A stretch of 38,382 nt of DNA, from contig JADZEX010000056.1 of the NCBI GenBank assembly GCA_020850355.1, positions 1 through 38,382 on the forward strand, read 5' to 3'. This document shows, piece after piece, positions 3,025-38,129 of the stretch (position 1 is the stretch's first letter; the number at the start of each line of letters is the position of its first letter). A program made the translations under genes and the position numbers. A model generated the notes under the pieces. That model saw only the letters and a list, made by a program, of their open reading frames with translations, ran no database searches and was not told the DNA's origin. This stretch comes from Fimbriimonadaceae bacterium. Its GTDB lineage: Bacteria; Armatimonadota; UBA10988.

Positions 3025-5931
3025 TCAGCGCGGGTTGGTGAAGTCGGCCAGCGCGGTTGAGAGGGCGTCGACCGCCTGTCGCAGGGCGGGGAGTTCGCTG
3101 ACCGGCGCATCGACATCGCCCTCGCGGGTTAGCAGCTCGATGCTGGACGCCAGGTCGACCACGGCGCCGGCGCGGAAGTTGCTGGCCGAACCCTTGAGGG
3201 TGTGCGCGGCGAGCTGTGCGGCGGCCGCATCGCGCCGGGCGAGGGCCACCTCCAAGTTGGTCAAGAGGCGCGGCGCGTCGCTGATGAAGATCTGGGCGAT
3301 GTCGCGCAGCAGGCTCTCGAAGCCGGCGAACTCGTGATGCAGCGCGGCGAGATCGAAGGGGCCGGCGGGCGCCGTCGGCGGGCCAGCGACGCGGATCCAG
3401 CGTCGCAGGCACTGCGCCAACTGCTCGGTCGAGATCGGTTTGCTGAGGTAGTCGTCCATGCCGACGGCGAGGCACCACTCGCGGTCGCCCTGCATCGCGT
3501 TGGCGGTCAGCGCGATGATCGGCACGTGCTGGCCAGCAGCCTCTTCCTCGCGCCACTGGCGGGTCGCCGCGAAGCCGTCGAGGCGGGGCATCTGGCAGTC
3601 CATCAAGACCGCGTCGTAGCGGCGCCGTCGGAGCAGCTCCAGGGCGGCCTCGCCATCGGCGGCCAGGTCGACGGTGCAGCCGAGCCGGCCTAGCATCAGG
3701 GCGGCCACCTTCTGGTTGACCAGGTTGTCCTCGGCCAGCAGCAGGTGCCCGTCGAGCCCGTCCCCGGCCGGCAGCACCGCGCTCGCGGCGGCGCCGGGCG
3801 GGCTGGCTGGCGCGGTCAGCAGCTCCCGCAAGGCCGCTCGGCGGAGTGGCTTCGGGAGAATCGTGACGTCGCTCGGCAGCGCCTCCGCGTCGGTTCCCCC
3901 CGCCGGCACCGCCAACGCGATTGGCAGCCCGCGCAGGCGCTCGTCCCGTTGGACCTGCGCCACCAGCTCGTGGCTGCCGTGATCGGCGGGGCTGCATCCC
4001 AGCAGCAGCAGGTCGTAGGGTCGGCCCGCCTGCCGAGCGTCCTGGAGCTGGCCCACGACGGTCTCCGCGGCCCCGGCCCGCTCGGCGTCGACGCCCCACG
4101 AGGCGAGCAGCTCGCGCCAGGTGCCGGCGGTCAGCGGGTGCGGGTCGTACAGCAGCACGCGCCGCGCCGAGAGGGGCTCGGGTGTGGTGCTGCTGCTGGC
4201 GGCGGTGGCCAACGGCAGTTCGAACCAAAAGGTCGAACCGCTGCCGACCTGGCTGGTGGCGCCGATCTCGCCGCCCATCAGATGCACCAGTTCGCGGGCG
4301 ATGGCGAGGCCCAGCCCGGTGCCGCCGAAGCGCCGCGTCGTGCCTGCCTCGGCCTGTTCGAACTTCTCGAAGAGCCGCGCGATCTGCTCCTGCGGGATGC
4401 CAATCCCGGTGTCGCGGACTTCCACCCGGACCCGCGCCGCGGTGGCGTCGACGGTCTGCCCGCGCACCGTCAGGCAGACATGGCCCTGACCCGTGAACTT
4501 GACCGCGTTGCCGGCCAGGTTCATCAAGACCTGGCGTAGCCGCCCGCCATCGGCCAGCACATGGCGCGGCGTGCGCGGCTCGTACCGCAGAATCAGCTCG
4601 ACGCCTTTGTCGGCTGCCAGCGGGGCCAGCAGGCTGGCGACCTCTTCGGTCACCACCAGCAGGTCCAGCGGCAGCGGGTCGAGCGTCAGCTTGCCGGCTT
4701 CGATCTTGGAGAGGTCCAGGATGTCGTTCAGCAACGTCAGCAGGGTCGTGGCCGAGGATCGCGCGGTGTCGACAAAGTCGCGCTGGCGGGGGGTCAGGGG
4801 AGTGTCCAGCAGCAGGTCGACCATCCCCATCACGCCGTTCATCGGCGTCCGGATCTCGTGCGACATGTTGGCCAGGAACTCACTCTTGGCCTGGTTCGCC
4901 AGCGCGGCCTCGGCCGCCAGACGGTTGGCCACGGCGGTGGCTCGTTGCAGTTCGACATTGGCCGCGCGGAGCTGCTCGTTGGCCGCCGCGGTGTCGGCCA
5001 GCGCCTGCCGCAGCGCGGCGGCGGCCTGCTGCCGGGCGGTGATGTCGCGGTAGTGCCAGAGGTGACCGCGGTAGAGGCCGTCGACAAACACCGGCACGTA
5101 GTCGCGCTCCAGGATGCGGCCGTCGAGCAGTGCCAGTTCGTCGCCGACCACCGTCTGTTGCGCCGCCAACAATGCGTCGACGCCGGCCACGAAGCGTTCC
5201 GGATCGCAGAACAGGTGCTTCGACTGCTCGGCGGCCTGGCTGCAGTCGATCCCGACCAACGCCGCCGGCGGGGCGGGGATCTCGAACAGGTCGCAGAAGG
5301 CCTGGTTGGTCTGTAGAATCCGCCGCTGGTCGTCCTCCACCAGCACGCCGCCACTGAGGTTGGCGAGCAGGGTCCCCAACTGCTTCTCGCGCAGTTGCAG
5401 GGCGGTGGTGTTGAGGCGGTTCTCGATCACCGTGCCGAGCAGCCGACAGACCGCCACCACCGGGGCCTGCCGCGCCGGATCGTAGGGCGCCCCGCTGAGG
5501 GCCATATCGTTGGCGAGCACGGCGACGGTGTGGCCATGCGCGACGACCGGCACCAGCGCCACCCAGCCGACTCCGAAGGGCACGGTGCGCTGCCCGTCCC
5601 ACTCGGTCCAGGTCTCCGGCTCGATCACCACGGCGCCGAAGTCGCTGCCATCCGAGGCGAAAGCGCGCATCCAGGCGGCACTCGGCTCGAAGAGTTGCGC
5701 CGACTCGTCGACCAGTGCGCCGTGCCGGTCGGTGCCCCAGGTGCCGCGCACCAGGGCGCCCTCGCGGAGCATCACCGCACAGCGCTCGACGCCCAGGTGG
5801 TCCCGCACCAGCTCGACAGCGTGCCGGTAGAGGCTGCTCTGGTCCGGGCAGTCCAGCAGCTCGGCGACGATCTCCGCCGCCGCCAGCAGGCCGCTGCTCG
5901 TTCCGAACGGGTTACCGCCGCTCAGGCTCAC
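3025..5931 (-). CDS. Soluble hybrid sensor histidine kinase (GAF-PAS-HisKA-HATPase-REC-REC-Hpt)
   Basis: This 968-residue phosphorelay kinase has no membrane segment, so it should sense a cytoplasmic signal. Domains in order: GAF-like (about 20-175), PAS (185-300), helical linker (300-345), HisKA with phosphoacceptor H358 in [11 protein letters not shown], HATPase (N475 of the N-box, DTGIGIP at 507-513, GGTGLGLA at 536-543), a degenerate receiver (590-705), an intact receiver (728-845, D735, phosphoacceptor D778, T809, K831) and an Hpt domain with H910 in AHTLKGSA. In the first receiver the aspartate position reads LLLLGC, so it probably cannot be phosphorylated, though K694 remains. The start is GTG with GGAGGGG 6 nt upstream. 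It lies 39 nt after the M60 peptidase gene and is probably co-transcribed with it. No response-regulator partner is in the window, so output probably goes through the Hpt to a distant regulator. Confidence 0.93.
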
Positions 5932-23555: not shown

Positions 23556-25553
23556 TCAGGTCAGCAAGAAGCGATAACTGGTCCCCGTGCCGCTGAGCAC
23601 GGCGACGATCACCCAACACCCGGCCGCCACAAACTCGCCGAGAATCAGGCCCAGGAAGAAGGGGTAGCAGCGACGGTAGGCCTTCATGCCGCCCCAGCGG
23701 AGCACCGCCGACTTGCAGCCCCAGCCCAGCAGCAGTGAGAACCAGAGCTGGATCAGCGGCCAGCTCGGGCCCATCGCGAAGCCCAGCGGGTGGAGTGGGA
23801 AGCCGCCGAACTGGTTGCGGGCAACGCACAGCGCCAGCATCACGGCCGCGCCCAGGCCGACCGTGGCGAGATGCGCTGGTTGGGCTTCGAGCGGCTGGTT
23901 GAGCATACTGGCAAGCTGCTGAAAGGGCTGCTGCGGCGAGGCGATCATGAACCAGGCCTGCTGCGAGATCGCCCCGTAGCGGTAGGCGGTGTACAAGATC
24001 GCGCCGCACGAGACGATCATCGAGAGGCCGATCGCCAGCCAGATCGGCCGGGTCATCTGCCGCCGCGGCAGGCCCGCACCGTCGGCCAGGCGGAACGCGT
24101 CGAGCAGCGACGGCCACAGCACGGCGCGCAGATCGAAGCAGAAGACGCGCTCGAAGAAGGCCAGCACGGTCAGCGCCCGCGGCCCCAACGCGCCGGTGCC
24201 GACCGCCGTCAGCAGCATGTCGGTCGGCCGGAAGGGGGCCTGGATGAACAGCAGGCCACCCTCGGCGATCATCCGGCTGAGCACCATCACGACCACCAGC
24301 AGCAGCACCAGACAGAGCAGGGCCAGCCCGCTGGCCAGTCCGGCGAGGTTCAGGATCAGCGTCGCCCCGAGCAGGCCGCCGAGCCCGGTCAGCAGCGCGC
24401 CGCGGTAGCTCTGCGGTTCGTCGCTGGACGCCGGTCGGCGGACCTCGCGCCAGGCCTGCAGCAGGTGCGGCCGCGCGGCGTAGAGCAGGTAGCCGGCCAG
24501 CACCAGGAAGGCACCCAGCATCTGCAGCCCGGCGTAGCGCGGCACCGGGTAGTTCGGCATGAAGGCGATGGTGTAGCCGTGGTAGGCCAGCAGCGCCCCC
24601 TCCAGCTTGAAGAGCAGGTAGCAGAACCAGAGGCTGAAGCTGAACTCGGCGGGGATTAGGAAGGTCAGGCCGATCACCGAGAAGTGGACCCACAGCCAGA
24701 GGATGCCCAGTTGGTTCCACGGCGGCGTGGTGAAGGAGCTGCTGAGGTCGATCCGCAGGGGAATCTCGGGCACCGCCGGGAAGTAGGTGTGCAGGCCATT
24801 GCAGAGGTGGACCACCGTCGGAATCGCGAAGCCGGCCCAGACCGCGGGCTGCCGTAGGAAGGGTGGCCAGGCCCCCGGGGTCTCGAAGCTGCTGAGCGCC
24901 AGCGGCAACTGCACCAGCGGGAAGGTCAGCCGTTCGCCCTCGACCCACTGCCGCCGCAGCAGCACGGCCAGCGCCCAGTAGACCGCGAAGATCGCCAGCG
25001 CCAAGGTCAACCAGGCGGTCAGCGGCACGACCCACGGTTCCCAGGGCACCGCGACGCGGCCGGCGACGCCTTCGTAGAAGCGACGCAGGATTTCGGGATC
25101 GGCGGGCCGGAAGACCGGCGGCAGATGGTCGTAGAACGGCGGCAGGCCGTTGACCGGCGAGTTCGGCAGGCGACTCAGGTCGAACGGCACGAACCACTGT
25201 GGCACGAAGCGGTAGAACCAGGTGGCCCAGCCGTTCTCGGCCGTGGCGAAGTACCCGACGCCGACCAGCGTCGGAATCAGGTAGGCCGCCAGCCCAAACG
25301 ACGGGATGCCGGAACCCACCAGCAACATGCCGTAGATCCCGACAACCTCGCCCGGCTGCAGGGCCCAGCGGCGGCGCAGGCGGGCGACCAGCGGGTTGGC
25401 CACCAGGATCAGCAACAGGAACAGGAAGAACGCGCCGACCGGCAGGTGGCAGGCGGCGATCCAGGTGCCCCGCAGTTGCAGGTCACTGTAAGGAATCAGC
25501 ACCGCCAGGGCAATCACCCCGACCGCGCCCAGCACCACGGCCCGCGAGGTCAT
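23556..25553 (-). CDS. DUF6785/DUF6784-type polytopic membrane protein
   Basis: The 665 residues contain a dozen or more hydrophobic segments and the opening VIALAVLIPYSDLQLRGTWI plus YGMLLVGSGIPSFG and RRQWVEGERLTFPLVQLPLAL, which I recognise from the DUF6785 family of planctomycete-like bacteria; the C-terminal part (LGWGCKSAVLRWGGMKAYRR, about 612-631) matches its DUF6784 half. The family is distantly like oligopeptide (OPT) transporters, so import of a small solute is possible but unproven. It lies 56 nt after the GcvH-like/PAS gene and 13 nt before the beta-helix gene. The operon pairs a membrane carrier with a secreted polysaccharide-active protein, which hints at uptake of glycan breakdown products. 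Confidence 0.8.
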   Translation of the reverse strand: MTSRAVVLGAVGVIALAVLIPYSDLQLRGTWIAACHLPVGAFFLFLLLILVANPLVARLRRRWALQPGEVVGIYGMLLVGSGIPSFGLAAYLIPTLVGVGYFATAENGWATWFYRFVPQWFVPFDLSRLPNSPVNGLPPFYDHLPPVFRPADPEILRRFYEGVAGRVAVPWEPWVVPLTAWLTLALAIFAVYWALAVLLRRQWVEGERLTFPLVQLPLALSSFETPGAWPPFLRQPAVWAGFAIPTVVHLCNGLHTYFPAVPEIPLRIDLSSSFTTPPWNQLGILWLWVHFSVIGLTFLIPAEFSFSLWFCYLLFKLEGALLAYHGYTIAFMPNYPVPRYAGLQMLGAFLVLAGYLLYAARPHLLQAWREVRRPASSDEPQSYRGALLTGLGGLLGATLILNLAGLASGLALLCLVLLLVVVMVLSRMIAEGGLLFIQAPFRPTDMLLTAVGTGALGPRALTVLAFFERVFCFDLRAVLWPSLLDAFRLADGAGLPRRQMTRPIWLAIGLSMIVSCGAILYTAYRYGAISQQAWFMIASPQQPFQQLASMLNQPLEAQPAHLATVGLGAAVMLALCVARNQFGGFPLHPLGFAMGPSWPLIQLWFSLLLGWGCKSAVLRWGGMKAYRRCYPFFLGLILGEFVAAGCWVIVAVLSGTGTSYRFLLT

Positions 25554-25609: not shown

Positions 25610-26383
25610 TCAGCCCTGCGGGTTGAGCACCACCACGGCGCAGCGCGGACGGCCCGGCCGGGCGATCGGCGTGTAGGTCGCCCGCACCGTGGTCTCGTCG
25701 CCGCTGGCGTTGGTGACGACGTACTCGGCATCGCAGACCGGCTCGTTGTTGAGCATCGAGCAGAGCCCGGGGCAACCGGACTTGGTGATCGGCGTCGCCA
25801 CCGCATCGTCGAGGTGGCAGCCGAACAGCTCGGCGCACAACGGGCCGTGCTGCAAGTCCTTGGCGGCCAGGCCGATCAGCTTCTCGGCAGCCTCGTTGCA
25901 GGTCAGGATGCGGCGCCGTTCGTCGATCAGGAAAGCCGGCTGGGTGCTGGCGGTGAGTGCCTCGGGCAGGGTGTCGCCGCGCGGCTCGGCCTTCCCCAAA
26001 ATCAGAGCCTCGTAGCTCGCGGCGTCTTCCAGTTCGGCCAACTCGGCCGGGTTGGAGAGCCGCACCGCCACCAGCCAGCCATCGTCGAGCGGCGCCTTGT
26101 TGACCAGGTGCGGCGTCATCCAGAGGGCCTCGTTGATCGCCACCACCTCGCCCTGGACCGGCGGGAAGAGCTGCGTCAGGCCGTAGCCGGCCGACTGCAG
26201 GTAGCCGAAGGGCAGGCCGAACGCAACCGGCGCGCCGAGGGCGGGCAGGCCGACATAGAAGATCTTCCCGAAGCGCTCCTGGCCATACGGGGTCAACCCG
26301 ACCATCGCCGTGTCACCTTCGCGGCGAACCCAGAGATGGCTGGCCGTGTACTGCAACTCGGTCGGCACGGTGTAGGTGTCCAT
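25610..26383 (-). CDS. GcvH-like domain fused to a cysteine-rich PAS domain
   Basis: From the ATG with GGAG 9 nt upstream, the protein has 257 residues. Residues 1-131 match glycine-cleavage H protein: HLWVRREGDTAMVGLTPYGQ, then GYLQSAGYGLTQLFPPVQGE, where the lipoylated lysine of GcvH is replaced by Y67, then the NEAL..PHLVNKAPLDDGWLVAVRL end. It therefore cannot carry lipoate in the usual way. Residues 146-252 form a PAS domain (AFLIDERRRILTCNEAAEKL) with many cysteines: C162, C183, C189, C204, C208, C217 and C248, including GCPGLC. These could bind a metal or Fe-S cluster or sense redox state. No output domain is present. It leads the operon with the DUF6785 and beta-helix genes. Confidence 0.8.
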   Translation of the reverse strand: MDTYTVPTELQYTASHLWVRREGDTAMVGLTPYGQERFGKIFYVGLPALGAPVAFGLPFGYLQSAGYGLTQLFPPVQGEVVAINEALWMTPHLVNKAPLDDGWLVAVRLSNPAELAELEDAASYEALILGKAEPRGDTLPEALTASTQPAFLIDERRRILTCNEAAEKLIGLAAKDLQHGPLCAELFGCHLDDAVATPITKSGCPGLCSMLNNEPVCDAEYVVTNASGDETTVRATYTPIARPGRPRCAVVVLNPQG

Positions 26384-26502: not shown

Positions 26503-26532
26503 CGCGCCAACACCGCAAGGAGCTGTGTGTCC

Positions 26533-27759
26533 ATGTCGAGCAACCCCGCGTACGAGCTGCTGGCGGCCAAGTTGGCCGCCAAGGGCCTCTCCATCGATGA
26601 GATCAAGGGCCGCCTGAAGACCCAGTGCATCGAGACCCCGAGCTGGGGCTACGCCGACAGCGGCACGCGCTTCGGCAGCTTCAAGCAGCCCGGCGCGGCC
26701 ATCAGCATTGCCGAGAAGCTGGCCGACGCCGGACAGGTCCACCAGTTCACCGGCGTCGCCCCAAAGGTGGCGATGCACGTGCTCTGGGACCTGCCCGACG
26801 ACGACGCGCTGCAGTCGGTGCCCGCCGCCGCCGCGGCCGCCGGGGTGCGCATCGGGAGCATCAACCCGAACGTCTTCCAGGACCAGGAATACAAGCTGGG
26901 CAGCTTCTGCCACCACGACGCCGAGGTCCGCCGGAAGGCCATCGACCACAGCCTGTTCTGCCTCGACGTCGCCAAAGCCGTCGACTCCGATGTGATCAGC
27001 TTCTGGCTGGCCGACGGCACCAACTACCCCGGCCAGGACAGCTTCATCGCCCGCAAGCACCGCCTCCAGGAGGGCTTCGCCGAGGTCTACGCGGCGATGC
27101 CGCCCGAGATGCTGATGCTCGTCGAGTACAAGTTCTTTGAGCCGGCGTTCTACCACACCGACCTGTGCGACTGGGGCCAGTCGCTGCTGCTCTGCCGCCA
27201 CCTCGGGCCGCAGGCCAAGGTGCTGGTCGACCTCGGGCACCACGCCCAGGGCGTCAACATCGAGCACATCGTCGCGACGCTGCTGGACGAAGGCATGCTC
27301 GGCGGCTTCCACTTCAACAACCGCAAGTACGGTGACGACGACCTGACCTGCGGGGCGATCAACCCGTACGAGTTCTACTTGATCTACAACGAGCTGGCGG
27401 CGGCCGAAGAGGACAGCCGACTGCGCTGCCGGGTCGAGTACATGATCGACCAGTCGCACAACATCAAGCTCAAGATCCCGGCGATGATCCAGACCGTGAT
27501 GACCATCCAGGCCGCCTACGCCAAGGCGCTCTGCGTCGACCGCGCCGAGCTGGCCGCGGCCCGCGAGGCTGGCGACACGCAGGCCGCCGAGCTGGTGCTG
27601 GTCGACGCCTACGACACCGACGTGCGGCCGTTGCTGGCCGTGGTGCGCGCTGAGATGGGCCTCGACCCGGATCCGCTGAAGGCTTACTTCGCCAGCGGCT
27701 ACCAGGAGACCATCGAATCCGAGCGCGGCTTCCGCCAAGGGCGGGGCCTCGGCTCATGA
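26533..27759 (+). CDS. rhaI: L-rhamnose isomerase (Pseudomonas-type)
   Basis: The 408-residue TIM-barrel isomerase interconverts L-rhamnose and L-rhamnulose (and often other aldoses and ketoses) using two metal ions. Spacing of the ligands matches the Pseudomonas stutzeri enzyme: E198 in VEYK, D233 and H236 in VDLGHH, H260 in GFHFNN, D268 and D306 in DQSHN. The protein is complete. The chosen ATG has AAGGAG 10 nt upstream; a GTG at 26527, six bases earlier, is an alternative. The stop overlaps the next start (ATGA). No rhamnulokinase, aldolase or lactaldehyde dehydrogenase gene is in the window, so the rest of the pathway must lie elsewhere. Confidence 0.88.
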   Translation: MSSNPAYELLAAKLAAKGLSIDEIKGRLKTQCIETPSWGYADSGTRFGSFKQPGAAISIAEKLADAGQVHQFTGVAPKVAMHVLWDLPDDDALQSVPAAAAAAGVRIGSINPNVFQDQEYKLGSFCHHDAEVRRKAIDHSLFCLDVAKAVDSDVISFWLADGTNYPGQDSFIARKHRLQEGFAEVYAAMPPEMLMLVEYKFFEPAFYHTDLCDWGQSLLLCRHLGPQAKVLVDLGHHAQGVNIEHIVATLLDEGMLGGFHFNNRKYGDDDLTCGAINPYEFYLIYNELAAAEEDSRLRCRVEYMIDQSHNIKLKIPAMIQTVMTIQAAYAKALCVDRAELAAAREAGDTQAAELVLVDAYDTDVRPLLAVVRAEMGLDPDPLKAYFASGYQETIESERGFRQGRGLGS

Positions 27760-28586
27760 CTCCCGCGGGCCTCTGGCGAACGTTCGCCGACGGGCCCGAG
27801 GAGCGACCCCGCCGAGCGGCGGTGGCGGTGGTGCTCGGCCTGCTGGCCAGCGCCAACGCCACCCTGCTCGGCCTGGCGTTGCCCTGGCGGCTCGGCCGCT
27901 ACACCACCCTTTGCTACGTGCTGCTGGCGCTACTCGGCCAACTCGGCCCGCGCTGGCTGCGGCGGCTGCACTGGGTTGGGCTGGCCGGCCTGGTGACCCT
28001 CAGTACCGTCGTCGCGACGACCCCGCTGGCGCCGACGCTGCTGGCGCAACGGGTCGTCGACGACGGGCCCGCGCCGGCCGACGTGATCGTCGTGCTCAGC
28101 GCGTCGACCTGGTCCACGTCGCTCAACGCCGCGTCGCTCGAACGGTGGCTGCACGGCGTCGAGTTGCTCCACGCCGGCTGGGCCCCGGCGATCGTCTTCA
28201 CCGGCGACCCGCTCAACCGGCTGAACCGCTTCGACGCGCTGGGGCCCGCGACGATGGCGGCGGTGGGGCTCCCAACGGCGGCCGTGGTGCCCTTCGAGGC
28301 GCCGCCGCGCACGCCGCTGACGACCTGGGACGAGGCCCAGGCGATCCGCGCGATGGGCCAGGCCCGCGGCTGGCAGCGGGTCTTGCTGGTGACCTCGCCG
28401 AGCCACACCCAACGCAGCAAGCTGGCTTTCGAGGCGCAGGGACTGGCGGTGCGGGTGGTGCCGGCGGCCAGTACGAAGTACGACCGCGTGCGGCCGACGC
28501 GGCCGGCCTGGCGCCTGGCGATGTTCCAGGACTGGGTCTACGAGACCACGGCGCTGGCGGTCTACCGCCTACGGGGTCGTTTCTGA
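27756..28586 (+). CDS. ElyC/SanA/YdcF-family (DUF218) membrane protein
   Basis: The 276 residues begin with three hydrophobic segments (about 21-41, 48-66, 71-91), followed by a DUF218 domain from about 107 (ADVIVVLSAS, GWAPAIVFTGDPLNR, TTWDEAQAIRAMGQARGWQRVLLVTSPSHTQRS broken by loops). DUF218 proteins such as ElyC and SanA affect envelope or peptidoglycan/polysaccharide assembly in enterobacteria, but their chemistry is not settled. It overlaps the rhamnose isomerase stop by 4 nt, so it is translationally coupled to it. Its 3' end overlaps the 3' end of the convergent deacetylase-family gene by 18 bp. Confidence 0.82.
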   Translation: MTPAGLWRTFADGPEERPRRAAVAVVLGLLASANATLLGLALPWRLGRYTTLCYVLLALLGQLGPRWLRRLHWVGLAGLVTLSTVVATTPLAPTLLAQRVVDDGPAPADVIVVLSASTWSTSLNAASLERWLHGVELLHAGWAPAIVFTGDPLNRLNRFDALGPATMAAVGLPTAAVVPFEAPPRTPLTTWDEAQAIRAMGQARGWQRVLLVTSPSHTQRSKLAFEAQGLAVRVVPAASTKYDRVRPTRPAWRLAMFQDWVYETTALAVYRLRGRF

Positions 28587-29543
28587 GGTCCCGCCCGCCG
28601 CGGCCACGGGCAGCCCCAGCAGGCCGTGCAGAATGTGGACGCTGCCCTCGGCCAGCGCCGTCAGGTCGTAACCGCCCTCGAGGCAGACCACCAGCCGACC
28701 GGCGCACAGCTCGGTGGCCCATTCGGCGGCGCGCAGCGTCATCTGCCGGAAGCCCTCGGCGCTGACTCGCATCTCGCCGAGCGGGTCGCGTTCGTGGATG
28801 TCCATCCCGGCCGAGACCAGCAGCAGATCGGGCTGGAAACCGGCGATCGCCGGGGCGACAGTCTCGTCGAGCAGGTCGAGGTACTCCTGCGTCCGCCGCC
28901 CGGCGCGCAGTGGCAGATTCAGCGTGGTGCCCTCGCCGGCGCCGGCGCCGCGCTCGTCGGCGTCGCCGGTGAAGGGGTACCAGGGCGCCTGGTGCATCGA
29001 GCAGAAGAAGACGCTGGGGTCGCTGTAGAAGGCGTCCTGCGTGCCGTTGCCGTGGTGCACGTCCCAGTCCAGAATGGCCACCCGCTCACAGCCCAGCGAG
29101 CGGGCGTGGCGCGCGGCGACGGCGATGTTGTTGAACAGGCAGAAGCCCATCCCGCGGCCCGGCCGGGCATGGTGGCCAGGCGGTCGGGAGGCCACGAAGG
29201 CGTTGCTGACCTTGCCCGCCAGGACCGCCTCGACCGCCGTCAGCGCCCCGCCCGCACTGAGCAGGGCGACCTCGTAGCTGGCGGCCGAGACGGGCGTATC
29301 GACATCCAGGGCGCCGCCCCCCGCCGCGGCCAGCTCGGCGACGTCGTCGACATAGAGCGGGTCGTGGACTCGTTCGACTTCGGCCCGGGTCGCCGCGCGG
29401 GGCTCCAGCAGCAGCAGATCGCAGAGTGCCGGGTACTCGCCCATCGCCGCCACAATCGCCCGCAACCGCCGGGGCTGCTCGGGATGAAACGGCCCGGTGT
29501 CGTGGTTCAGGTACGTCGTCGAGGTCACCAAACCGCTGGCCAT
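28569..29543 (-). CDS. Histone-deacetylase-family (HDAC/AcuC/APAH-like) zinc amidohydrolase
   Basis: The 324-residue arginase-fold enzyme has an intact HDAC active site: catalytic histidines H124-H125 in RPPGHHARPG, zinc ligands D161 and H163 in LDWDVHHGNG and D248 in SAGMD, and the transition-state tyrosine Y292 in LEGGYDL. Bacterial members deacetylate polyamines, acetoin-related compounds or protein lysines, so the substrate is not fixed. It starts 9 nt after the dnaE stop with GTAAGG upstream, and is probably co-transcribed with dnaE. Its 3' end overlaps the DUF218 gene by 18 bp on the other strand. Confidence 0.9.
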   Translation of the reverse strand: MASGLVTSTTYLNHDTGPFHPEQPRRLRAIVAAMGEYPALCDLLLLEPRAATRAEVERVHDPLYVDDVAELAAAGGGALDVDTPVSAASYEVALLSAGGALTAVEAVLAGKVSNAFVASRPPGHHARPGRGMGFCLFNNIAVAARHARSLGCERVAILDWDVHHGNGTQDAFYSDPSVFFCSMHQAPWYPFTGDADERGAGAGEGTTLNLPLRAGRRTQEYLDLLDETVAPAIAGFQPDLLLVSAGMDIHERDPLGEMRVSAEGFRQMTLRAAEWATELCAGRLVVCLEGGYDLTALAEGSVHILHGLLGLPVAAAGGTSETTP

Positions 29544-29552
29544 ACGCCTTAC

Positions 29553-32500
29553 TCACTCGACCGCCACAGCGCCGTCCGCGCCGACCGCCACCAGCGCCTC
29601 ATGGAGCGCCGTGGTGTAGACCGCGTCGAACTGCGCCGGCAACCTGATACGGCGGTGCGCCACGCCATCCTCCAACCGCAGGATCACCGGCGTGCCGCCG
29701 GGGTAGCGGCGGAGCGCGGAGGAGACCTCTTGCAGGACCCCCCGCAGATCGCCGCCGACCTGCACCGGCACCTCGATCGCCACCGGGCCGCCGAGCTGCG
29801 CCAGCGACTGCGCCCACTCCTCGGCGGCCGTCGCCTCGGCCCGTGCTTCTTCGCGGCGGGCCGCCGCCGGCTTCAGCTTGCGCCACTCGCTGAGCGGCAC
29901 CAGGCGGTCCACCAGCACCCCCGGCAGCCCGTTGCCCCGGACCGGGTCCGGCGCCTCGGTCTTGCCCTGCACCAGCACCAGGTTGTCCAGTTGCACCAGC
30001 TCGCGGCACTTCTCGTAGACCCGCGGGAAGACCACCAGCGAGGTCACGCCGCGGCCGTCGTTGAGCTTCAGCCGCGCCATGTCGTCGCCCTTCTTGGTGG
30101 TGAAGGCGTAGACATCCTCAATCACCCCGCCCAGCAGTACCGTCGTCTCGGCCCGGAACTCGGCCAGGCCGGTCGAGCCGTCCAGCTCCAGCTCGATGTC
30201 GCGCAGCAGCTTCAGCTTGTCGCCCAGCGGGTTCTCGAACAGGATCAGCCCCAGCAGCTCGGTGTCGAGCTGCCGCAGCTCGTCCGGGCTGAACTCGCTG
30301 AGGTTCTTCGGGCGCGGCGCCAGCGTGGCCGTTCCGTCGTCGTCGCCAAACAGACTGCCCTGCCCGACCGCGGCGTCGGCCTTGTCGCGGTGCGCCGCCT
30401 CGTAGATCGCCTCGTAGCAGTCCAGCAACTGCCGGCGGTTGCCGAACGCGCGGCAGGCGCCGGCCCGAATCAGCTTCTCGACCGCCGCCTTCGGGACCGC
30501 CTTGCTGTCGACTCGGCGACAGAAGTCGTAGAGGTCACTGAACTCGCCGGCGGCCCGTCGTTCGGCCAGCAGGTGCTCGCTGACGGCCAGCCCGACGCCG
30601 TTGACCGCACCCAGGCCGTAGACGATGTGGTCTTCGTGGACCTCGAAGTTGACCCCGCCGGTGTTGACGCAGGGCGGCAGCACCTCGATCCCCATCGCGC
30701 GGGTGTCCTGCACAAAGTTCACAATCTTGTCGCGCTTGTCCATCACGCTGGTGAGCTGCGCGGCCATGAACTCGTGGGGGTAGTTCGCCTTGAGGTAGGC
30801 CGTCCAGTACGAGACCACTGCGTAGCACGCGCTGTGCGCCTTGTTGAAGGCGTATTTGGCGAACTTCTCGATGATCAGCATCAGCTCTTCGGCGACGCTT
30901 TCGGCGATGCCGTTCTTGACGCAGCCGCTGATCACGTCCTGCCGGACCTTGGCCATCGTGGCGGCGTCCTTCTTGCCCACCGCCTTCCGAATCGAGTCGG
31001 CGCCGGCCAGCGTGAAGCCAGCCAGGTCGCGCCCGATCTGCATCACCTGTTCCTGGTAGACGATGATGCCGTAGGTGCTCTCGAGGATCGGCTGCAACAA
31101 CGGGTGGAGGTACTCGACCGGCTGCTCGCCATGCTTGCGCGCCACGTAGTCGGCGATGAAGTCCATCGGGCCCGGCCGGTAGAGCGCCACCAGCGCCACG
31201 ATGTCGTCGACACAGTCGGGCCGCAGGTCGCGGCAGACCCGCTGAAAGCCGCTGCTCTCGAGCTGGAAGACGCCAATCACGTCGCCGCGGCTGATCAGCT
31301 CGAAGGTCTTCGGATCGTCCAGCGGGATCGCCCGGACGTCGAACTCGGGCAGGCCATGCTTCTCACGCACCAGGCGGCAGGCCTCGTCGATGACGGTCAT
31401 CGTCCGGAGGCCCAGGAAGTCCATCTTGAGCAGCCCGATCTTCTCGATGGCTCCCATATCGAACTGGGTGACGATGTCCTGACCGCCCGACACGCGGCAC
31501 AGCGGGACGTAGTTGTCGAGGTCGTCGCGGCCGATCACCAGTGCCGCGGCGTGGATCGAGGTGTGTCGCGCCAACCCCTCCAGGCGCAACGCGTTGTCCA
31601 CGACCTGGGCCACCTGGGCGTCGGTCTCGTACCGCCGCCGCAACTCCTCGACCTCCTTGAGCGCCTCGCTGAGCTTGGTGCCCGGCTTTTCCGGCACCAG
31701 TGCGGTGAGGCCGTTGACCACCTCGATCGGCACCTCCAGCACCCGGCCGACGTCCTTGATGGCGGCTTTCGCGCCGAGCGTCCCGTAGGTCACAATCTTG
31801 GCGGTGCGGTTCGGGCCGTACTTCTCGATGGTGTAGGCGACCACTTCCTCGCGCCGCTCCGGCGGGAAGTCGATGTCGATGTCCGGGGCGCTCGGCCGTT
31901 CGGGGTTCAGGAACCGCTCAAACAGCAGGTCATACTGCAGCGGGTCCAGCTCGGTGATGCCCAGCACATAGGCCACCATGCTGCCCGCCGCGCTGCCGCG
32001 GCCCGGGCCGACCCGGATCCCGCGCCGCTTCGCGAAGTCGATCAGGTCCCAGACGATCAGGAAGTACGGGCTGTAGCCCTTCGCCTCGATCACGCTCAGC
32101 TCATAGTCCAGCCGCTGGCGGACCGCGGGGGTCACGGGATCGTAGAACCGGCCGAGCCGTTCGTCGCAGATCCGGCGCAGATACTCCGGCGCGGTGGTCC
32201 CCTCAGGCACCGGGAACTCCGGCAGCACCAGGTCGCCGAACTTGAGCTGCACGTTGCAGCGCTCGGCCAGCTCGCGAGTCCGCAACAGGGCGTCTGGCAG
32301 CTCACCGAAGAGCTGCCACATCTGGTCGGCGCTCCGGAAGTAGAGCTCGCGGCTGCTCATCCGCATGCGGTCGGGCTGGCTCTGCAGACAGCCCGTCTGG
32401 ATGCACAGCAAGAGGTCCTGCGGCCCGGCGTCCGACTCCTTGACGTAATGCACGTCGTTCGTGGCGACCAGCGGAATGCCCGTCTCGCGGCTCAGCTCGA

Positions 32501-33092
32501 TCAACGCCAGGTTGACCCGCTGCTGGTCCTCGGTGTGGTGGTCCATCAGCTCCAGGAAGAAGTGCTCGGGGCCGAACAGCTCGCGGTACTTCTCGGCCGA
32601 CCGCCGCGCCGCGGGCAGGTTGCCATTCAGAATCGCCTGCGGGATCTCCCCGCCGAGGCAGGCCGACATCGCAATCAGCCCGGCGGTGTGCTGCGAGAGC
32701 AACTCGAAGTCGAGGCGCGGCTTGTAGTAGAAGCCGTTCAGCCAACTGTCCGAGACCATCTTGAGCAGGTTGCGCCAGCCGGTCTCGTTCTCGCAGAGCA
32801 GCGTGAAGTGGCAGAGGTGGCGCCCGGTGTCGCCGCTCGACCGCACCTTGTCCAGCCGGGAGCCCTCCGACAGCAGGTAGGCTTCGACGCCCAGGATCGG
32901 CTTGACGCCCTGGTCGGTACACGCCTTGTAGAACTCGACCGCCGCGAAGAGGCTGCCGTGGTCGGTCAACGCGACCGCCGGCATCCCCCAATCAGCGGCC
33001 GTCGTGGCGATCTCCGCGCACCGCGCGGCGCCGTCCAGCAGGCTGTACTCGGTGTGCAGATGGAGGTGGACAAAGTCGCGCGCGCCGGCCAT
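29553..33092 (-). CDS. dnaE: DNA polymerase III subunit alpha (DnaE1-type)
   Basis: At 1179 residues this is a full-length replicative polymerase. The N-terminal PHP domain keeps its metal motifs (HLHLHTEYSLLDG at 9-21, LTDHGSLFA at 42-50, TNDVHYV at 211-217). The polymerase core has GPGRGSAAGS (362-371) and the catalytic aspartates D404 and D406 in PDIDIDFP, with MDFLGLRTM carrying the third. Helix-hairpin-helix and OB-fold (VLLGGVIEDVYAFTTKKGDDMARLKLND) parts follow. It starts at an ATG with GGGAGG 7 nt upstream and has its own promoter. There is no 3'-5' exonuclease domain, as expected for DnaE rather than PolC; proofreading would come from the PHP domain or a separate DnaQ. Confidence 0.97.
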   Translation of the reverse strand: MAGARDFVHLHLHTEYSLLDGAARCAEIATTAADWGMPAVALTDHGSLFAAVEFYKACTDQGVKPILGVEAYLLSEGSRLDKVRSSGDTGRHLCHFTLLCENETGWRNLLKMVSDSWLNGFYYKPRLDFELLSQHTAGLIAMSACLGGEIPQAILNGNLPAARRSAEKYRELFGPEHFFLELMDHHTEDQQRVNLALIELSRETGIPLVATNDVHYVKESDAGPQDLLLCIQTGCLQSQPDRMRMSSRELYFRSADQMWQLFGELPDALLRTRELAERCNVQLKFGDLVLPEFPVPEGTTAPEYLRRICDERLGRFYDPVTPAVRQRLDYELSVIEAKGYSPYFLIVWDLIDFAKRRGIRVGPGRGSAAGSMVAYVLGITELDPLQYDLLFERFLNPERPSAPDIDIDFPPERREEVVAYTIEKYGPNRTAKIVTYGTLGAKAAIKDVGRVLEVPIEVVNGLTALVPEKPGTKLSEALKEVEELRRRYETDAQVAQVVDNALRLEGLARHTSIHAAALVIGRDDLDNYVPLCRVSGGQDIVTQFDMGAIEKIGLLKMDFLGLRTMTVIDEACRLVREKHGLPEFDVRAIPLDDPKTFELISRGDVIGVFQLESSGFQRVCRDLRPDCVDDIVALVALYRPGPMDFIADYVARKHGEQPVEYLHPLLQPILESTYGIIVYQEQVMQIGRDLAGFTLAGADSIRKAVGKKDAATMAKVRQDVISGCVKNGIAESVAEELMLIIEKFAKYAFNKAHSACYAVVSYWTAYLKANYPHEFMAAQLTSVMDKRDKIVNFVQDTRAMGIEVLPPCVNTGGVNFEVHEDHIVYGLGAVNGVGLAVSEHLLAERRAAGEFSDLYDFCRRVDSKAVPKAAVEKLIRAGACRAFGNRRQLLDCYEAIYEAAHRDKADAAVGQGSLFGDDDGTATLAPRPKNLSEFSPDELRQLDTELLGLILFENPLGDKLKLLRDIELELDGSTGLAEFRAETTVLLGGVIEDVYAFTTKKGDDMARLKLNDGRGVTSLVVFPRVYEKCRELVQLDNLVLVQGKTEAPDPVRGNGLPGVLVDRLVPLSEWRKLKPAAARREEARAEATAAEEWAQSLAQLGGPVAIEVPVQVGGDLRGVLQEVSSALRRYPGGTPVILRLEDGVAHRRIRLPAQFDAVYTTALHEALVAVGADGAVAVE

Positions 33093-35024: not shown

Positions 35025-36362
35025 TCAGGGGTCTGCCAGGTAGATCCTGGCCAGCCCCTGCCGTGGCAGGTCGGGCGGGCCGATGGGACGGTCGAGGATC
35101 GCGGCGGCGGCAGCATGGCCGCTGCGGACCGCGCCCTCCATGGTCGACGGCCAGCCGGTGGCGGTCCACTCGCCGGCCAGGTAGACCCCCGGCAGGGCCG
35201 TGCGCGGACCGGGACGATGGGCCGTCAGGCCGGGCGCCGGGATGAAGGTGGCCCGCGTCTCACGGCAGGCCGCCGTGCGGAGCGGCGGCGGCAGGTCGCC
35301 CAGCACGCCGCGCACGGCGGCCAGGGCGCGGGTGGCCATCGCGGTCGGGCTCAGACCGGCCCAGTCAACGGCAGCGCTGACCACGACGCTCAGATGCCGG
35401 CCGCCGTCGCGGGCGAAGATCCAGTCGACCGCGTGGTCCAGCAGTCCGAGCAGCGGCTCGCGCAGCACCGGCTCGGCGAACTGCAGGTGGACGCCGACCA
35501 GGCTGGCTGGCTGCAGCTCCGGCCAGCCGGTCGAACGGCCGCGCACGGTGGGCGCCGGCAGCAACTCCGGGACGACTCGCGCGACCTGCCACCAGGGCAC
35601 GGCGCAGACCGCGGCGTCCCACTCGGTCAGCCGGCCAGCGGCCAGCGGCAGGCGGGCGTGGGTGCCGAGCCGCAGCACCACGCCGCTGGCCTGCAGCGCG
35701 GCCCGCGTCGCGGTGTCGTGGAGGTCGTGCAGGCTGCCTTGCGGCACTCCGAGCTGGAAGCCATCGCGGTGCCGCAGCAGGCCTTCTAGGAAGAACATGA
35801 TCCCAGCCGCGGCGGCGATCTGGCTGGCGCCGGCGTTGAGGACCGAGGTCAGCAGCAATCGCCAGAAGGTACGGTCCAGCGTGGCGCTGGTGGTCCGTCC
35901 GAGCCACTGCTGGAAGGTGATCGACTCGAGCTCGCGGTAACGCCGGCCGACCAGCAGCATGCGCTGAAAGGCGAGCGCCAGGCAGAGCCGGTCCCGCGGT
36001 GTGAGGCCAGGCAACGCGGCCAGGCCAGGCGCCAGGTGGAGCGGCGGCGCGGCGGGCCAGGGCCAGGCGCGAAAGAGGCCGCGTTGGCCGTTGCCGGCGA
36101 TCAGCGGCAGCCGGTCGTGCCAGGTGATCTGCTCAGCGACTCCCAGCCGTTGGTAATGCCGCACGAGATGGGTGCAGCAGCGCAGCAGGACGTGCTGGCT
36201 GGTGTCGACCGGCTGAGCCCAGCCCGGCGCCTGGAACGAGGCAGCGCGCCCGCCGAGGCTCGTCCGCTTCTCGACGAGGGTCACCTGCCAGCCGGCATCA
36301 GCCAGGGCGAGGGCAGCGCTGCACCCGGCCAGGCCGCCGCCGACGACTAGGACGCGCGCCAC
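35025..36362 (-). CDS. hpnE: Hydroxysqualene dehydroxylase HpnE
   Basis: HpnE is an FAD-dependent amine-oxidase-type enzyme that reduces hydroxysqualene to squalene. From the GTG chosen the protein has 445 residues, starting VARVLVVGGGLAGCSAALAL with the dinucleotide-binding GxGxxG-like loop at 8-13 (GGGLAG), then LVEKRTSLGGRAASF. The family end LPGVYLAGEWTATGWPSTMEGAVRSG is complete. A GTG at 36395 is a possible earlier start, but the family begins directly at the Rossmann strand. It overlaps hpnD by 16 nt. Its stop is 12 nt from the convergent ImmA-like stop. Confidence 0.93.
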   Translation of the reverse strand: MARVLVVGGGLAGCSAALALADAGWQVTLVEKRTSLGGRAASFQAPGWAQPVDTSQHVLLRCCTHLVRHYQRLGVAEQITWHDRLPLIAGNGQRGLFRAWPWPAAPPLHLAPGLAALPGLTPRDRLCLALAFQRMLLVGRRYRELESITFQQWLGRTTSATLDRTFWRLLLTSVLNAGASQIAAAAGIMFFLEGLLRHRDGFQLGVPQGSLHDLHDTATRAALQASGVVLRLGTHARLPLAAGRLTEWDAAVCAVPWWQVARVVPELLPAPTVRGRSTGWPELQPASLVGVHLQFAEPVLREPLLGLLDHAVDWIFARDGGRHLSVVVSAAVDWAGLSPTAMATRALAAVRGVLGDLPPPLRTAACRETRATFIPAPGLTAHRPGPRTALPGVYLAGEWTATGWPSTMEGAVRSGHAAAAAILDRPIGPPDLPRQGLARIYLADP

Positions 36363-37213
36363 GCCGGGGCCCAACGCGAGGCGACGGCCGCCCACAGAAT
36401 CTGCGGCCCGGGCGCCGCGGCGAGGCGGCCGGAGACGGCGTAGTCGGTGGCCCGCAGGCGAGCCAGCAGGCTGCGATACTTGACGGTCATCGCAACGATC
36501 CCCGGGCGGTCAGCGGGGCGGAGCATGTAGAACAGACTGTCGGCGCGCTCGTACTCGCGCTGCGCTTCAGCACCGACCGCCGCCAGCAGCGCGCGCACCG
36601 CCGGCAGCCGCGGCCCACTCAGATCGCCGGTGGTCAGGTGGTGCTGCGCCAGCAGGTCCGCCGGCAGGTAGATCCGATCGAGCTGCAGGTCCTCGCTGAC
36701 ATCGCGCAGGATGTTGGTCAACTGCACCCCGCGGGCATTGGCCTGACTCAGCGCCAGCAGCGCCGGGTCGCAGTATCCGAGGATCCGCAGACAGGCCTCG
36801 CCGACGGTGCCGGCCACGCCGTCGCAGTAGCGCCGCAGCGCCGGCCAGTCGGCGCAGCGGACCGGACCCAGGTCGCCGCCGCAGGCGTCGAGGCAGCGCT
36901 CGAACAGCGCGGTCGGCAGTTGGTACCGCCGGGCGGTCTCGGCAATCGCCAACAGCGGGCTGCCGAACTCAATGCTGCCGCCGCTGAGGGCCCGTTGCAC
37001 GGTCGTCCGCCAGATCTCGAAAGCGGCTCGCTTGGCCGGCTCCTGGCCGGGCTCGTCGACCAGGTCGTCGGTGATTCGGAAGAAGGCGTACATCGCGAAG
37101 ATGCCGTCACGCTGCGCCGGTGGGAACAGCTTCATGCCGAGCCCGAACGACGAGCTGGCGGCCTTCACGATCTCGCGGCAGCGGGCGTAGCTGGACGTCA
37201 ACTGGCCTGCCAC
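36347..37213 (-). CDS. hpnD: Presqualene diphosphate synthase HpnD
   Basis: The 288-residue all-helical prenyl synthase joins two farnesyl diphosphates to presqualene diphosphate. Both Mg-binding motifs are intact: DDLVDE (49-54) and QLTNILRDVSED (164-175), with YAFFRITDD and YCDGVAGTVGEACL also as in the family. Start is GTG with GGAGG 5 nt upstream. The gene overlaps hpnC by 16 nt and hpnE by 16 nt, so the three are translationally coupled and act in sequence. Phytoene synthase is the main alternative for the fold, but the gene trio fixes the call. Confidence 0.93.
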   Translation of the reverse strand: MAGQLTSSYARCREIVKAASSSFGLGMKLFPPAQRDGIFAMYAFFRITDDLVDEPGQEPAKRAAFEIWRTTVQRALSGGSIEFGSPLLAIAETARRYQLPTALFERCLDACGGDLGPVRCADWPALRRYCDGVAGTVGEACLRILGYCDPALLALSQANARGVQLTNILRDVSEDLQLDRIYLPADLLAQHHLTTGDLSGPRLPAVRALLAAVGAEAQREYERADSLFYMLRPADRPGIVAMTVKYRSLLARLRATDYAVSGRLAAAPGPQILWAAVASRWAPAWRAS

Positions 37214-38112
37214 GGCATCCTCCCTCCGGTCAGCACTCGCAGCATCAAGGCCACCTTGCCCACCTTGCCCAGCGCCGGGCGACGGCTTAGGGTGTCGTAA
37301 TCTTGACGCGCGATCCGGTCGAGGATCGACCAGCCGCCAGCGCTGAAGAGCGTCACATCCCGCCGCAGCCGGCGATCCAGGGTCTCCAGCAGCGGCAGCC
37401 CGGCGCGGAACAGCTCATAGGTTCGCGCGCACTCCCACCGCAACAGCTCGCGGTACTGCGGCGTGCAGCGCCCAGCGGCGATCTGGTCAAGGCTGACGCC
37501 GTACTGGTCGAGGTCTTCCTGCGGCAAGTAGACTCGCTCTCGCTCAACCCAGTCGCGGCGGACATCCTGCCAGAAGTTGGCGAGCTGCAAGGCGGTGCAG
37601 GTGCAATCGCTGAGGCCCTGGCGCTCCGGGTCGCGGTAGCCGCCGAGGTAGAGCACCAGCCGGCCGACCGGGTTGGCGCTGCGGGTGCAGTAATCGAGGA
37701 CCTGCTCCCAGGTCTGGTAGCGCGACTGGTGGCGGTCCTGCACAAAGGCGTCGAGCAGGTCGTCAAACGGCTGCTGCGGGATCTCGAAAGCGTCGACCGT
37801 CTCCTGCAACGCGACGAAGACCGGGTGGGTGGCCTGCCCGGCGTACATCGCGTGGAGCCCCTCGCGCCAGGCGGCCAGCAGCCGCAAGGCCTCGTCCGGA
37901 GCGCTGACCTCATCGGCCAGATCGTCGCTGACGCGGCAGTACGCGTAGACATTGGCGAAGTGCTGGCGGAGTGGGCCGGGCAGGAACCAGGAGACGACCG
38001 TGAAGTTCTCGTAATGCTGGCGGGTGAGCTGCGCGCAGAACTGCCGCGCCGCCACGGGGCTGGCCGGCGTGGTGCGCGCCAGATCATACCGTTGGACCAC
38101 TGACTGCGCCAC
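37198..38112 (-). CDS. hpnC: Hydroxysqualene synthase HpnC
   Basis: HpnC converts presqualene diphosphate to hydroxysqualene by adding water. The protein is a squalene/phytoene-synthase-fold enzyme with SDDLADE near residue 65 and the second motif LQLANFWQDVRRDW near 178, both typical of HpnC. The start is uncertain: GTG at 38112 has GGTGGAG 6 nt upstream (304 residues), while GTG at 38124 coincides with the predicted transcription start and would be leaderless (308 residues). It is the first gene of hpnC-hpnD-hpnE. No squalene-hopene cyclase is in the window, so the end product (hopanoid, sterol or squalene itself) is not shown. Confidence 0.92.
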   Translation of the reverse strand: MAQSVVQRYDLARTTPASPVAARQFCAQLTRQHYENFTVVSWFLPGPLRQHFANVYAYCRVSDDLADEVSAPDEALRLLAAWREGLHAMYAGQATHPVFVALQETVDAFEIPQQPFDDLLDAFVQDRHQSRYQTWEQVLDYCTRSANPVGRLVLYLGGYRDPERQGLSDCTCTALQLANFWQDVRRDWVERERVYLPQEDLDQYGVSLDQIAAGRCTPQYRELLRWECARTYELFRAGLPLLETLDRRLRRDVTLFSAGGWSILDRIARQDYDTLSRRPALGKVGKVALMLRVLTGGRMPWQAS

Positions 38113-38129
38113 ACCGCACTCCACCTGGG

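Follow-up and report, generated by a model that had tools for sequence, protein, structure and literature searches.

The gene at positions 25610 to 26383 on the minus strand of the window, the whole 38,382-nucleotide stretch of Fimbriimonadaceae DNA analyzed here, encodes a protein of 257 amino acids in which a GcvH-like domain without its lipoyl lysine is fused to a C-terminal PAS domain. We observe that this fusion is a maintained protein, with loss of the lysine going along with the fusion, and we tentatively read it, with a probability of roughly 0.4, as a cytoplasmic sensor-adaptor in which a redox-linked PAS domain would use the non-lipoylated GcvH domain as its docking output. The coordinates of the original prediction are correct, the gene running from an ATG at 26383 to a stop codon at 25610 to 25612. 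A TTG start further upstream, at 26518, was disfavored, since the relatives align from the ATG.

The GcvH-like domain (residues 10 to 128; 26000 to 26356, minus strand) is matched by Pfam GCV_H over residues 10 to 127 (E = 7.1e-26), and the NCBIfam GcvH models match it below their curated cutoffs (99.0 bits versus 115.85 and 105.7 versus 117). An AlphaFold2 model computed from an eight-row alignment (the window protein, L023, and six GcvH sequences from viral contigs) has a mean pLDDT of 76, with about 73 to 95 in the GcvH half; single-sequence prediction gave a pLDDT of 41.6 and was therefore not used. In Foldseek comparisons with this model, the N-terminal half matches E. coli apoH (3a7a) with a TM score of 0.93 and most H-proteins with scores of 0.85 to 0.94, and the GcvH fold is thus predicted to be retained in the fusion. 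The fusion shares with GcvH (Pfam PF01597, TIGR00527) the fold, the length, and the conserved H-x-W, P-x-x-G, and G-W positions, but it differs in the missing lipoyl lysine, a loop longer by one residue, a change of HEW to HLW or HMW, the fused PAS domain, and scores under the NCBIfam GcvH cutoffs. The HEW change was left uncounted as a second lost functional residue, since some lysine-bearing GcvH proteins also vary at that position. The GcvH fold has likewise been reused outside glycine cleavage in LbpA of sHdr sulfur oxidation and in GcvH-L (PDB 5a35), neither of which is, to our knowledge, fused to PAS. LbpA has been reported as lipoate-binding (PMC6067878).

With respect to the lipoyl site, the lipoyl-lysine of GcvH sits at the tip of a hairpin that is formed in the modeled fusion by strands 60 to 64 and 68 to 72. 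By alignment and model, this former lipoyl hairpin (residues 60 to 78, GYLQSAGYGLTQLFPPVQG; 26150 to 26206, minus strand) is one residue longer than in GcvH and contains no lysine, and aligned to the GcvH of its own genome the fusion reads LQSAGYGLTQLFPPVQG. It had been proposed that Y67 replaces the lipoylated lysine. The absence of the lysine is borne out, with no other lysine at the lipoyl position in the alignment with GcvH, whereas the exact residue is Y67 or G66 according to gap placement: given the additional loop residue, an ungapped count from the conserved P-V-x-G places the lysine column at Y67, and alignment from the other side places it at G66.

Across 291 Armatimonadota genomes searched with a four-row profile, full-length fusions with both domains are found in four, namely, the window genome, G002 (68% identical and from another genus), G001 (37%), and G006 (31%). 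The lysine column reads G/Y in the window protein and G002, E/P in G001, and A in G006, so that the lipoyl lysine is absent from 4/4 fusions, whereas it is kept in 58/58 distinct non-fused GcvH domains; these 58, which include second copies in many genomes, are a sample from the same searches rather than the full GcvH complement of the phylum. In an IQ-TREE phylogeny of GcvH domains, the four fusions form one clade with an ultrafast bootstrap of 97, nested among lysine-bearing GcvH proteins, with G001 and G006 as long branches that could inflate this support. Judged from these sequences, the fusion and the loss of the lysine apparently arose once within the sampled phylum. Good support for the predicted reuse of the H-protein fold comes from the lysine counts, the single clade, and the purifying selection described below.

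A scan of genome contigs yielded a single relative, which is apparently G002 itself. Viral contigs scanned for the fusion and for PAS gave no relative, and a plasmid search gave GcvH-length matches only, with no record covering 80% of the fusion. No described GcvH-PAS protein was found in the open-access literature on GcvH or GcvH with PAS, and GCV_H-PAS architectures may be present outside Armatimonadota in other databases. As separate observations on GcvH, genes for this protein occur on IMG/VR contigs with a viral classification (L140 to L147), some longer than 100 kb, and a divergent stand-alone GcvH-like protein (L105, G017:C1:354700-355700) reads IEGFKAV at the lipoyl site and retains the lysine.

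The PAS domain (residues 143 to 250; 25634 to 25957, minus strand) is weakly scoring yet real: Pfam PAS matches residues 143 to 191 (E = 1.5e-6; 28.6 bits versus 22.6), weaker PAS models extend to 251, and the C-terminal half of the model is matched by Foldseek to PAS domains, including 3mjq (TM score 0.80), DosP, and FG214. Nothing beyond PAS was detected by profile search, and the 257 residues contain no catalytic, enzymatic, or DNA-binding output domain, as originally predicted. Elsewhere in the window, positions 3025 to 5931 encode a hybrid histidine kinase with PAS, HisKA, HATPase, receiver, and Hpt domains.

The protein has seven cysteines, as had been counted, and all lie within the PAS half (162, 183, 189, 204, 208, 217, and 248). 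Their conservation among homologues holds for three and fails for the other four: C183, C189, and C204 (C-x5-C-x14-C-P; 25772 to 25837, minus strand) are invariant in 4/4 fusions, although G001 and G006 are only 25 to 35% identical in the PAS half, whereas C162 and C208 are common to the window protein and G002 only and C217 and C248 are private to the window protein. The GCPGLC motif (residues 203 to 208; 25760 to 25777, minus strand), which includes the invariant C204, is nearly kept, as DCPGLC, only in G002. Compared with a background of 16/121, the 3/7 invariant cysteines correspond to a hypergeometric P of about 0.05, so that cysteine conservation is modestly above chance and suggestive only. 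The loop at residues 188 to 203, in the stretch between C189 and C204, is modeled with low confidence.

Remote PAS domains with a C...C...C-P motif at the matching place were found by a PAS profile search of related genomes (L080, L084, L085, L094, L096, and L103); motif inspection assigns GGDEF to two of these proteins and suggests that one is a histidine kinase. In L080, L085, and L096 (PAS-GGDEF and kinase sensors), the second cysteine is placed differently from that of the fusion and, unlike in the fusion, standard output domains are present. Since similar motifs occur in such ordinary sensors, the cysteine triad is, on sequence grounds, one variant within a broader class of PAS domains. 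For the L085 and L096 PAS domains, a search by sequence gave no match to a solved structure. NreB is a histidine kinase whose four cysteines, in two CxxC pairs, also lie inside a PAS domain, but the fusion has three conserved cysteines with other spacing, the rest not being aligned among the relatives; a fourth ligand of a different nature is conceivable. The NreB PAS domain holds a [4Fe-4S] cluster, as cited in PMC9918477. The suggested new sensor or adaptor would fit the fusion. The proposal that the PAS half is redox-responsive or binds an Fe-S center gains a little from the three invariant cysteines and is weakened by the related motifs in ordinary PAS sensors.

It is possible, if doubtful, that the ligand of the PAS domain is instead heme, flavin, or some other small molecule and that the cysteines are structural or zinc-binding, in which case the sensor-adaptor role would stand but sensing would involve neither thiols nor an Fe-S center. 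Among the top PAS matches by fold and by profile are two heme sensors, DosP and FG214, of which FG214 comes from a member of the same phylum (PMC13060918). The remote PAS domains whose cysteines are similar belong to ordinary GGDEF or kinase sensors, and two histidines of the fusion, H178 and H190, are close to its cysteines. However, unlike the three cysteines, neither histidine is conserved throughout, conservation of H178 failing in G006 and that of H190 in both G001 and G006, and a ligand is not predictable from similarity of PAS folds. FG214, an HTH-PAS heme switch of Fimbriimonas ginsengisoli, binds heme through histidines and has an N-terminal effector controlled by its C-terminal PAS (PMC13060918). 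It resembles the fusion in this one-component design, with the effector N-terminal and PAS C-terminal, but its effector is a DNA-binding HTH and its ligand heme, and the fusion has a GcvH-like domain in place of the HTH. FG214 is a precedent for the layout of the fusion, not for its ligand.

The survey of GcvH-PAS fusions and their neighbors, which yielded the four fusions across the 291 genomes, revealed no common neighbor: the surrounding genes differ between genera, and no partner gene beside the fusion is shared among the four loci. In the window, a DUF6785/DUF6784 membrane protein gene (23556 to 25553, minus strand) lies 56 bases downstream, on the same side as a gene for a beta-helix protein, and is not beside the fusion in the relatives read; the divergent L-rhamnose isomerase gene (26527 to 27759, plus strand) is also divergent in G002. 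A gene reading like GDP-mannose dehydratase lies downstream of the fusion in G002 and a similar dehydratase-like gene in G001, followed in both by an adenylosuccinate-lyase-type gene (the dehydratases and the G002 lyase were named by eye). Further along the window, a histone-deacetylase-family gene (28569 to 29543) is convergent with a DUF218 gene, a long open reading frame resembling DNA polymerase III alpha (29553 to 33092) adjoins this pair, and two adjacent squalene/phytoene-synthase genes with an amine-oxidase-type gene (35025 to 38124, minus strand) resemble the HpnCDE squalene set.

None of the loci read has glycine-cleavage or lipoylation genes beside the fusion. The window genome (G000) encodes a normal GcvH at C78:4101, with ESVKAA at the lipoyl site and the lysine present, and an adjacent gene resembles one for a lipoate ligase; since this genuine GcvH, as well as GcvP and GcvT, is encoded apart from the fusion, the fusion is not the carrier. 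GcvT is present in 4/4 fusion-bearing genomes and GcvP in three. Because G001 gave no GcvP match, though it has the fusion, a lysine-bearing GcvH, and GcvT, the fusion there may be directed at something other than glycine cleavage.

The G006 locus (L058:4555-7913) raises the prospect, which we consider improbable, that the fusion serves an enzyme encoded nearby, such as SudB/SudA (NfnAB-like), as a dedicated accessory subunit acting as an assembly or electron-transfer scaffold. Here, SudB-like and SudA-like (NfnAB/sulfide-dehydrogenase-like) genes, whose products are DHODB-type (Fe-S/flavin) and GltD-like subunits, lie directly downstream of the fusion in the same orientation, and an O-methyltransferase gene comes next. 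However, this adjacency occurs in one genome only, the other three fusions adjoining other genes; the best SudB match of the window genome sits in a separate NuoF-like cluster without the fusion, and G033, which belongs to the G006 family, carries a SudB fragment (75% identical) that lacks an upstream fusion. SudB was rejected as a general partner, since elsewhere it is encoded separately from the fusion.

Purifying selection acts on both domains of the fusion, with a dN/dS between the window protein and G002 of 0.41 (0.39 for the GcvH half and 0.41 for the PAS half), comparable to 0.44 for the neighboring rhamnose isomerase in the same pair. It is because of this value and the missing lysine throughout the fusion clade that we regard the fusion as maintained, with lysine loss accompanying it. 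A functionless, decaying GcvH paralogue in an accidental fusion would fit the patchy distribution and the long branches of G001 and G006, but it is very unlikely given an open reading frame preserved in all four genera, selection in both domains like that on the adjacent enzyme gene, the invariant cysteines, and the retained predicted fold. That a different residue of the GcvH domain remains modified is hardly credible, since K40 and K96, though present elsewhere in the domain, are neither at the hairpin tip nor conserved in the other fusions.

For the redox-linked sensor-adaptor that we prefer, a duplicated GcvH gene would have lost its lipoyl lysine and acquired a C-terminal PAS domain. The cysteine triad would let the PAS domain sense a redox-related cue, whether as a thiol/disulfide switch or through a bound metal or Fe-S center, and the GcvH-like domain would be the output module, because the lipoate-carrying lysine is absent yet the fold, as modeled, is kept. 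This output may dock on a protein that recognizes GcvH, for example, a glycine-cleavage or lipoylation enzyme, and block or tether it depending on the state of the PAS domain. We put forward, as an idea with clearly less than even odds, that a disarmed GcvH carrier domain serves as the output of a PAS sensor, signaling by lipoyl-carrier mimicry through docking on the enzymes that recognize it or on the lipoylation machinery. The association between lysine loss and fusion in Armatimonadota is clean enough to make this idea testable. If true, an enzyme cofactor carrier would have been turned into a signaling output alongside the loss of its cofactor site, and redox sensing would be directly linked to lipoate or one-carbon metabolism.
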